Part shown: positions 14,196 to 24,117 of the stretch, one piece after another | Position numbering within the stretch: position 1 is the first letter of the stretch | Layout of the letters: the number at the start of each line of letters is the position of its first letter | Assembly (NCBI GenBank): GCA_030433135.1 | Contig: JAUILF010000008.1 | Span: forward strand, 1 to 46,470 | Direction of reading: 5' to 3' | DNA from: Bacteroidia bacterium | GTDB taxonomy: Bacteria > Bacteroidota > Bacteroidia > Chitinophagales > Saprospiraceae | Length of the DNA stretch: 46,470 bases | Made by a program: the position numbers and the translations under genes | Notes under the pieces: generated by a model | Told to the model about the DNA's origin: nothing | Databases searched by the model: none | The model's input: only the letters and a program-made list of their open reading frames with translations

Positions 14196-15347
14196 ATGAG
14201 AAAAACTGATGAAGGTCATATCGACCCGCAGGTCGTATTGGAATCCATGACTGAAAGCATCCTGATCACCGATGCAAACCTGGAAGATCCCGGGCCGGTC
14301 ATACTCTATGTAAACCCCTCTTTCGAAAGGATGACCGGATGGAAGAAAGAAGAGATCATTGGCAAAAATCCACGTATACTGCAAGGTCCCAAAACCGAGC
14401 ATGCAATATTTCACGACCTGAAAGAAAAACTACTAAACGGAGAAGTATGGAGCGGCAGAACTATAAATTACCGGAAGGATGGATCTGAGTTTTATATGGA
14501 ATGGTCGATCACTCCCATTGGCAAAAAAGGACACCCTGTCCAGTTCCTTGCTGTTCAGCGCGACGTAACCAGGGTCGTTGGTACCGAGAAGAAACTGGAA
14601 CAAGCCCGGGTGCTGGAGAAAAAGCGTTTGCAGGAAATAGAAAAAGCCAACAGCGATTTAAATGATCTGCTCTCCCGGCAAAATCAGACTCTATCCCTTT
14701 TCACCAAGTATGTTCCCGAATCGATTGTCAAGAAGGCACTGTCCTCCACAAACGAAGAGAACGAAGTAAGTCTCCGCCTGGATGTGGCTCTGCTTTTCTG
14801 CGACATTCGTGAGTTTACCCGCATCATTGAGACCTTACATCCGGAAAAAGTGGTACAACTGCTCAATGTATATTACTCTCATATGTCGGAAACTATAAAC
14901 GAACACCAGGGGGTAATCAATCAATTTGTCGGTGATGAAATCTTTGTGGCTTTTGGTGCACCAGAGCCCATTAGCGACCCCTCTATCTCAGCGGTAAAGT
15001 GTGCATTGGCCATGATAGATAAACTAACCAAAATCAATGATCAGCTGAAAGATGTTCTGCAACAGGAAATTACAGTGGGAATCGGTATTCACTATGGATC
15101 TGTCGTAGCAGGCAACCTCGGCTCTGAAGATAAACTTTCTTACTCCATCACCGGCAGCCCGGTGGTAACTGCAAAACGCATCGAATCACTCACCCGAAGC
15201 CTGAAAAACACCATATTGATCAGTCAGTATGTGTATGCTCTGACCCTCAACCTGATCGAGACAAGGCCCTGGGGAAGAGTTGAAATTAAGGGGAAGAACG
15301 AGAAGATCGCCGTGTATCAGGTCATCGGTCTAAATCAACCTGAATAA
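14196..15347 (+). CDS. PAS domain - class III adenylate/guanylate cyclase
   Basis: PAS core 'YVNPSFERMTGWKKEEIIGKNPRILQGPKT...INYRKDGSEFYMEWSITPI'; cyclase core 'LLFCDIREFTRIIE', 'GVINQFVGDEIFVAFG', 'YSITGSPVVTAKRIE'. Confidence 0.93.
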   Translation: MRKTDEGHIDPQVVLESMTESILITDANLEDPGPVILYVNPSFERMTGWKKEEIIGKNPRILQGPKTEHAIFHDLKEKLLNGEVWSGRTINYRKDGSEFYMEWSITPIGKKGHPVQFLAVQRDVTRVVGTEKKLEQARVLEKKRLQEIEKANSDLNDLLSRQNQTLSLFTKYVPESIVKKALSSTNEENEVSLRLDVALLFCDIREFTRIIETLHPEKVVQLLNVYYSHMSETINEHQGVINQFVGDEIFVAFGAPEPISDPSISAVKCALAMIDKLTKINDQLKDVLQQEITVGIGIHYGSVVAGNLGSEDKLSYSITGSPVVTAKRIESLTRSLKNTILISQYVYALTLNLIETRPWGRVEIKGKNEKIAVYQVIGLNQPE

Positions 15348-15356
15348 GACTATAAG

Positions 15357-16538
15357 ATGGCAGATAAATTTTCATCTATTTTAGATACGGAGCTCATTAC
15401 CCATGCGGCCGACTCGACTTTCGAAGGGATAACGATAAGTGATATGCAGCACCCCGATCAACCCCTGATATATGCCAACCGGGGGTTTGAAGAACTAACG
15501 GGGTATTCGAAAGAGGATGTCATAGGCAAAAACTGTCGTTTTCTTCAAGGTGAGGCCACCAATCGCAAAATCGTCCATGAGATCAGGCAATGTATAGCTT
15601 CCCGAATGGCCTGCACCGTAGAATTACTAAACTACCGAAAGAACGGAACCCCGTTTTGGAACCGCCTTTCCCTGACTCCCATATTCAATAAAGACAAACA
15701 ACTGACTCACTACGTGGGTGTTCAATCTGATATTACTGAACTAAAAAGAACCCGTGCCATCCTGGAAGATACAAATACTAAACTCTCCCATTTTCAAGAG
15801 CGTATCTTGAAAGAGTTGAAACAAGCCAGACAGACTCAGGAATTCATCTTGCCTTCGGAATTGCCATCAACAGCACATTGGAAATTCCAGTCCATGTTTG
15901 TTCCCCTGGAACAAATCGGTGGAGACTTCTACGATGTGGTCGAACTCAATCCAGGGGTTTACGGCCTTCTTATTGCGGATGTAACTGGTCACGGTATCCC
16001 CGCTTCCCTTCTGACCTTTATGTCAAGTACAACTTTCAAAAACACTGCCCCGGGTTCTCTGTCGCCGGCAGAAACACTATCCTCAACCAACAGCAAGCTA
16101 TATGGGAAGATGCCAAATGATGCTTTTGTAACCATGTTTTATGCAATTCTGGATACAAATAGTAAAACTCTCAGGTATTGTCAGGCTGGACATCCTGCGG
16201 CCATGTTGATCAGATCTTCAGCAAATGAGATTATCTCACTGGAGACTAGAGATCCGTTTATCGGTATTTTATCCCAGGAAGAATTATTTCTGAGAGAAAA
16301 AATGGTAAAAATCGAACCCGGCGATAAATTCATCATGTACACAGATGCCATCCTTGATCTGCTTGGAATTCAATCAAATGCACAAGGAGAAGAAGTGCTG
16401 AAGCAATTCCTCAAAGAGAATGGAAATTTATCTCTTGAAAAAATCTTTCGAGAGTTGTTTCACTTTGGTCTGGATGAGTCACATTACAACAATTATCCGG
16501 ATGATTTTACTCTGCTTGGTTTTCATTACTCACCTTAG
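15357..16538 (+). CDS. LOV/PAS domain - SpoIIE-type PP2C phosphatase
   Basis: LOV signature 'GKNCRFLQG' plus 'LNYRKNGTPFWNRLSLTPI' and 'VGVQSDIT'; phosphatase motifs 'GGDFYD', 'ADVTGHGIPA', 'QAGHPAAML', 'YTDAILD', 'DDFTLL'. Confidence 0.93.
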   Translation: MADKFSSILDTELITHAADSTFEGITISDMQHPDQPLIYANRGFEELTGYSKEDVIGKNCRFLQGEATNRKIVHEIRQCIASRMACTVELLNYRKNGTPFWNRLSLTPIFNKDKQLTHYVGVQSDITELKRTRAILEDTNTKLSHFQERILKELKQARQTQEFILPSELPSTAHWKFQSMFVPLEQIGGDFYDVVELNPGVYGLLIADVTGHGIPASLLTFMSSTTFKNTAPGSLSPAETLSSTNSKLYGKMPNDAFVTMFYAILDTNSKTLRYCQAGHPAAMLIRSSANEIISLETRDPFIGILSQEELFLREKMVKIEPGDKFIMYTDAILDLLGIQSNAQGEEVLKQFLKENGNLSLEKIFRELFHFGLDESHYNNYPDDFTLLGFHYSP

Positions 16539-17061
16539 TGCTGGCAATCGATGGGCCAATTACAATCGGACCAATCTCTAACCTGAAGGTCTCTGCTCTT
16601 TTATTGGCAATCAAAAACGATATTTTCTCAATCTTTTTGCCGGAAAAGGATCTTAGATTCAGTCGTTTTCCGCGGTAGACCGGATAGAAATTACTGAGAG
16701 GTATCACTAGATTTTGCCAGGTTCCATCGGTCATAATATCCATATTATAGGATTCCCTGTTCTCAAATTGTGATTTAACTCTAAATTGGTAGCGTTTGCC
16801 ATCTCCCCTCAAGTTTAGGTGTATCTGGGTGGATGGAAGTATTCCTTCAACTTCCACGCGGTGATGAAGAGATGTAAACCCACCATTATTCTCCAGTGAT
16901 ACACGGCCGGAAAATATAGCAATTGAGCTATTCTGTGCGGAAAAACAACCTTGAGAAACTCCTCCCATCACCGCATCATCTACTACATACCACGCATCTG
17001 CATTTTCCGCAGGAGTTATTACGGTTTTATCTTCTTCTATATGCATCCCTTTTGTAATCAT
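16507..17061 (-). CDS. CIA30 family protein (NADH:ubiquinone oxidoreductase intermediate-associated protein 30 domain)
   Basis: 'WYVVDDAVMGGVSQGCFS', 'FSGRVSLENNGGFTSL', 'LNLRGDGKRYQFRVK'. Confidence 0.9.
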   Translation of the reverse strand: MITKGMHIEEDKTVITPAENADAWYVVDDAVMGGVSQGCFSAQNSSIAIFSGRVSLENNGGFTSLHHRVEVEGILPSTQIHLNLRGDGKRYQFRVKSQFENRESYNMDIMTDGTWQNLVIPLSNFYPVYRGKRLNLRSFSGKKIEKISFLIANKRAETFRLEIGPIVIGPSIASTKVSNENQAE

Positions 17062-23877: not shown

Positions 23878-24064
23878 TTTAACCCGGATTATGTAATGGG
23901 GTTTTGTCGTGAGAGTCAAAGATACAATAAAGACGGGCGCTCCAAGTGCTTTTTGACTCGCAAACATAGTCGCTGTTATGGTGAGAATCAAAAAGTGCTT
24001 ATGTGCCCGTATTTGCAGTAGCTTTGGCTCGTAATAGAAAATCTATTGCATAGTCCGGGTTTAA
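23878..24064. repeat. MITE-like palindromic dispersed element, short form (copy 2)
   Basis: TTTAACCCGGATTATGTAATG...CATAGTCCGGGTTTAA; whole 187 bp is an imperfect inverted repeat; reverse complement matches 1166..1466. Confidence 0.87.
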
Positions 24065-24117
24065 GCGATAAGGTAACAGTTTATGGGATGAGCGTCATCA
24101 ATATTAGATCAATGCTT

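Follow-up and report, generated by a model that had tools for sequence, protein, structure and literature searches.

The window analysed here—a stretch of 46,470 nucleotides representing contig C430 of a 6.3-Mb draft genome from the family Saprospiraceae, coded G000—carries two neighbouring genes on the same strand, the first one encoding a PAS domain joined to a class III nucleotidyl cyclase and the second one a LOV domain joined to a SpoIIE/PP2C phosphatase (Table 1). The original prediction, which had seen in this pair a possible connection of blue light with both cyclic-nucleotide (cNMP) signalling and partner switching, described the layout correctly, the two open reading frames being found exactly at the positions it had given, 9 nt apart; the genes are probably co-transcribed across that gap. 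The orthologues of both proteins share about 50-62% identity with those of the window, a conservation far above chance. On its 3' side, the LOV-SpoIIE gene faces a convergent gene for a CIA30-domain protein, the 3' ends of the two overlapping by 32 nt (16507-16538). A convergent CIA30 gene occupies the same place also in G003 and G005, and it is the only conserved third gene, lying downstream of LOV-SpoIIE in three genomes of one genus; it is judged here to be a syntenic marker, with no functional link claimed.

Table 1 Features of the gene pair and its convergent neighbour (positions of the window)
Feature	Position	Strand	Remarks
PAS + class III nucleotidyl cyclase gene	14196..15347	+	383 aa; Pfam PAS_9 and Guanylate_cyc above cut-off; orthologues 58-62%
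LOV-like PAS domain, aa 11-127	14226..14576	+	alignment A1
GKNPRILQG motif	14361-14387	+	Pro59 codon 14370-14372 replaces photoactive Cys
Predicted helical linker PAS-cyclase, aa 125-183	14568..14744	+	AlphaFold helices 125-172 and 175-183; linker end of low confidence
Cyclase catalytic domain	14781..15323	+	retains R328 and the metal-binding D203 and D247; Q243 in place of Lys, S317 of Asp, V324 of Asn
9-nt intergenic gap	15348..15356	+	read from sequence; 13 nt in G005, 10 nt in G120
LOV + SpoIIE/PP2C phosphatase gene	15357..16538	+	393 aa; Pfam PAS_9 4e-25, SpoIIE 4e-38; AlphaFold mean pLDDT 90
LOV domain, aa 24-128	15426..15740	+	alignments; Foldseek match to 9vf7, target TM-score 0.94, 1.1 A
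GKNCRFLQG motif	15525-15551	+	Cys60 codon 15534-15536
NYRKNGTPFWN motif of LOV domain	15630-15662	+	
VGVQ motif of LOV domain	15714-15725	+	
Continuous signalling helix, LOV to phosphatase, aa 127-164	15735..15848	+	AlphaFold model
SpoIIE/PP2C phosphatase domain	15951..16523	+	DVTGHG, YTDA and PDD motifs; GGDFYD just upstream, aa 188-193
CIA30-domain gene, convergent neighbour	16507..17061	-	Pfam CIA30; synteny

Concerning the second protein, its assignment as a LOV signature fused to a SpoIIE/PP2C phosphatase is borne out by Pfam, by matches of 120 bits to the solved LOV structures 9vf7 and 8c05, and by the three LOV motifs, all of them in place. The photoactive cysteine and the LOV signature are invariant in all the full-length Bacteroidota orthologues found, and the flavin-contact residues N59, R61, Q64, R77, N92, N102 and Q123 are invariant or nearly so (alignment A3). 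The phosphatase domain retains intact the metal-binding aspartate motifs of PP2C (GGD, DVxGHG, YTD, DD), and Foldseek matches its fold to SpoIIE as well as to the phosphatase of RssB from Pseudomonas aeruginosa, the latter being the nearest solved phosphatase fold (target TM-score up to 0.87), although RssB possesses a receiver domain where the LOV domain sits here. Across the window's genome, PAS_9 matches the LOV-SpoIIE protein with 90 bits and the cyclase PAS with 65 bits, all others reaching at most 44 bits; since it is the strongest match by far, the LOV-SpoIIE protein may be the sole LOV protein of this draft genome.

It should be pointed out that the architecture itself is already reported, SpoIIE-type phosphatases being listed as common outputs of LOV/BLUF proteins in bacteria (PMC4844311), and the known LOV-SpoIIE/PP2C photoreceptors exhibit the same domain order and motifs; what differs here is that the orthologues, with about 50% identity, form a group within Bacteroidota that is sometimes paired with a cyclase. 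A literature search with the literal term "LOV-SpoIIE" found no paper. Full-length orthologues with 49-56% identity come from other Saprospiraceae and from Algoriphagus antarcticus and A. winogradskyi, and the same architecture, at 30-38% identity, is seen in Phycisphaerales, Acidobacteria, Hydrogenedentota and Fodinibius. In a phylum-wide draw of 399 genomes, no strong match (E <= 1e-60) was found beyond the window's own genome and the group is thus sparse.

The first protein likewise corresponds to its original description, i.e. a PAS domain with proline at the site of the photoactive cysteine (GKNPRILQG) in front of a cyclase, both PAS_9 and Guanylate_cyc having been confirmed. This proline is present in 9/9 orthologues, whereas the flavin-position Arg, Gln and Asn are mostly kept, the Asn of the FWN motif being replaced by Met in the five sequences aligned. 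Because proline thus takes the place of cysteine throughout, control of cNMP by a photoadduct is unsupported. It should be noted, however, that LOV variants devoid of the cysteine can signal by photoreduction (PMC5645311); while adduct chemistry is excluded, light sensitivity of the cyclase PAS is therefore still conceivable by analogy with them.

The catalytic domain has the class III cyclase fold (Guanylate_cyc, 6e-27) with the metal-binding D203 and D247 conserved, and it lacks the canonical adenylate-cyclase lysine, the base-binding Asp/Thr and the transition-state asparagine, which are represented by Q243, S317 and V324, respectively, whereas R328 is kept. The pattern is not peculiar to the window: at the Lys/Asp/Asn/Arg sites, all eight readable orthologues have Q or E, S or A, V or I, and R, respectively, both metal aspartates and the catalytic arginine being invariant among them. 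With Lys, Asp and Asn all replaced, ATP cyclase activity of the 14196-15347 protein is unlikely as judged from these residues, and a weak or other activity is possible. Inactivity should not be assumed, since Ma1120, a natural cyclase from Mycobacterium avium, is active with alanine at the Asn position (PMC4215837), and by that analogy the activity of the cyclase may have been underestimated here. The AlphaFold model of this protein (mean pLDDT 75) was kept out of all statements about the active site.

The proposed light-to-cNMP link through the cyclase is not supported, in view of these two points taken together—a PAS domain that cannot form the cysteinyl adduct and a catalytic site non-canonical in every orthologue. 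That the cyclase produces cAMP or cGMP and is controlled by light, directly or indirectly, is accordingly rather improbable, even though the genes are adjacent, both metal aspartates and the arginine are kept, and cyanobacterial LOV-activated adenylate cyclases (mPAC type) exist with the same order of LOV/PAS, helix and class III cyclase; those found in this analysis, however, keep the full K-D-N-R set, in contrast to Gln, Ser and Val for Lys, Asp and Asn, and Pro for Cys, in the protein studied here. The orthologue from G171 is also in favour of such a cyclase, as its base-binding residues are Glu and Ser, which are seen together in guanylate cyclases (residue rule, PMC4215837). Among the best solved matches of the catalytic domain are the class III cyclases Cya2 (2w01; 113 bits) and CyaB (3r5g; 89 bits), from which the window's cyclase differs in the base-specifying and transition-state residues.

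Within the family, the nearest sister cyclases (43-50% identity) mostly have the Gln and Ser in common with the orthologue group, but they keep the asparagine; its loss therefore marks the orthologue group itself. Such family-specific class III cyclases, mostly with Gln/Ser base positions and the transition-state Asn retained, are represented by loci L170-L176. The specific loss of Asn in a group otherwise well conserved (52-71% identity) would fit a pseudoenzyme that regulates the LOV phosphatase, or some target common to both proteins, by dimerisation or sequestration. Such a role is possible, yet doubtful, as the metal aspartate pair and the catalytic arginine are invariant and a pure scaffold would not need them. 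In any case, the loss of Asn in the paired cyclases, and not in their nearest relatives, offers a clean test of functional change in a class III cyclase.

As far as the co-occurrence of the two genes is concerned, among 299 genomes of the family full-length orthologues of the PAS-cyclase are present in eight, those of LOV-SpoIIE in ten, and both in seven, four of the seven belonging to one genus. The hypergeometric probability of this co-occurrence is 2.4e-11 by genome and 2.5e-5 by genus, values that ignore relatedness and common habitat. Conservation of the pair in relatives, which the original prediction had named as a check, stands only in part: the association is non-random and the genes are adjacent on the same strand in three of the seven genomes (G000 with 9 nt, G005 with 13 nt and G120 with 10 nt between them), covering two genera, but they lie apart in G001, G003, G133 and G171, where the neighbours are different for the LOV gene (G003 and G171), for the cyclase gene (G133) or for both (G001). 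Moreover, LOV-SpoIIE is found with no cyclase nearby in the Algoriphagus loci and in other Saprospiraceae, and it occurs without the cyclase in G031, G250 and G312. With regard to G120, its cyclase gene is split over two contigs, and the N-terminal half was therefore assigned by sequence only.

The separated and cyclase-free loci would be explained if the adjacency were incidental, i.e. if the two were independently exchanged signalling genes with a common habitat and sometimes a common locus. In agreement with this, the pairwise identities of the two proteins are uncorrelated (r = -0.15) and in the tree of the cyclases G003 clusters with G120, and G005 with G133, across genus boundaries, a pattern suggesting that the cyclase gene has been passed from one genus to another; the tree of the seven LOV-SpoIIE sequences was unresolved. 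The same-strand arrangement with gaps of 9-13 nt in three genomes of two genera and a co-occurrence far above random expectation, however, speak against pure coincidence, so that an incidental pairing is considered one of the less probable explanations; were it correct, what would remain is a new orthologue group of LOV-SpoIIE. Judged from the genomes compared, the pairing is a real and recurrent, although loose, association with an unusual cyclase, and the pair is worth biochemical testing. A tighter relationship, namely a dedicated blue-light module in which the LOV phosphatase controls, or is controlled by, a cyclase-derived partner lacking both Cys and Asn, can be put forward only tentatively; if true, a partner switch gated by light would have as its regulatory subunit either a nucleotide signal of a new type or a catalytically retired cyclase.

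In the window, no RsbV/RsbW-like gene adjoins the pair according to the lists of open reading frames and the Pfam scan of the neighbours, in agreement with the original prediction. Its suggestion of partner switching, which is the likely output, gains from G120, in which the genes for the cyclase, LOV-SpoIIE, an HD-PycTM protein, a STAS protein and an RsbW-like protein are consecutive on one strand, the last one being followed by the genes for an Ig-like protein and a TPR-SpoIIE phosphatase (from HD-PycTM to TPR-SpoIIE directly after the pair, L193 1878-7634, contig C160). It is, however, the only relative with STAS and RsbW beside the pair. Next to a SpoIIE match in L024 (G016) there is a relative of the Ig-like protein with 67% identity, and the run from HD-PycTM to TPR-SpoIIE may therefore be a separate partner-switching cluster of its own; as this run contains its own TPR-SpoIIE phosphatase, it is not necessarily a target of the LOV phosphatase.

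The HD-PycTM gene after the pair in G120, together with the PADLOC profiles of PycC matching the cyclase (best 3e-17), could also point to a Pycsar-like defence module, in which a PycTM effector would respond to a cyclic pyrimidine produced by the cyclase. The PycC profiles, however, share the generic class III fold, and the cyclase has Gln at Asp-4 and Val at Asp-2 in place of the Arg/Gln of EaPycC (PMC11224242). The fusion of HD with the PycTM effector domain occurs in 232 of the 299 family genomes, often in several copies (e.g. L228-L246), and the other copies examined are mostly away from cyclases; neither the window nor G005 has an effector beside the pair, G120 being the only genome with an HD-PycTM neighbour. 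After the HD-PycTM neighbours had been traced, mostly with no cyclase nearby, and with the base residues of PycC absent, the Pycsar reading, highly improbable on these grounds, was rejected.

Concerning the target of the LOV phosphatase, STAS proteins are documented substrates of this phosphatase family (PMC11418112). Away from the pair, on other contigs of the window's genome, there are stand-alone candidates for both partners: contig C70 carries a gene for a STAS protein with a phosphoacceptor-type DSSG motif, and C24 one for an RsbW-like protein; a further SpoIIE phosphatase is encoded on C465. Based on these substrates, these candidates and the gene order in G120, a phosphorylated STAS protein is our best guess of the target. 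A close parallel is RsbP from Bacillus subtilis, with a like arrangement of PAS, coiled-coil linker and PPM phosphatase, which acts on a STAS antagonist (PMC12143880, PMC3183031); the PAS domain here is, by contrast, a LOV of the photoactive type, and no RsbQ-like hydrolase was noticed next to LOV-SpoIIE in the window. A coiled-coil linker has been proposed as the means of transmission in phosphatases combining PAS, GAF or receiver domains with PPM (PMC12143880).

Taken as a whole, the phosphatase half of the light-signalling idea is well supported by the sequences, and the cNMP half is not. The reading preferred here, given a probability of roughly 0.55, is that of a light-gated partner-switching phosphatase with a co-expressed divergent cyclase in the same pathway; its domains, motifs, adjacency, co-occurrence and substitutions are sequence-based, and from them we infer the photochemistry, the regulation of the phosphatase, the STAS target and the role of the cyclase. 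The product of 15357-16538 would thus be a soluble blue-light receptor phosphatase, in which blue light would generate a Cys60-FMN adduct in a LOV dimer and the coiled-coil linker would relay the change to the switch helices of PP2C. Its activity on a phospho-STAS protein (RsbV/SpoIIAA-like) would change in turn and an RsbW-like kinase would shift between partners, the candidates for this switch being those encoded on the other contigs. The mechanism is backed by the invariant LOV signature, the intact PP2C motifs, the confident AlphaFold model, in which the linker helix is uninterrupted, and the Foldseek matches. The product of 14196-15347 would be co-expressed with it, a divergent class III cyclase that has Gln and Ser at the base positions, lacks the Asn and is preceded by a LOV-like PAS unable to form the adduct; it might answer a non-adduct cue, such as redox, ligand or flavin state, and contribute to the same pathway either through nucleotidyl cyclase activity, weak or on a substrate other than ATP, or by serving as a regulatory partner. 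If this reading is true, it would provide a concrete light input for the little-studied RsbW/STAS partner-switching genes of Bacteroidota, as well as a natural compact light-switched Ser/Thr phosphatase useful for optogenetics.

Apart from the pair, the window contains two copies of a dispersed repeat of about 300 bases, at 1166-1466 and, in reverse, at 23878-24065, with further copies in L078 (5091-5369) and L049 (1113-1382); the copies, apparently lying between genes, are 84-92% identical across contigs of the same genome.
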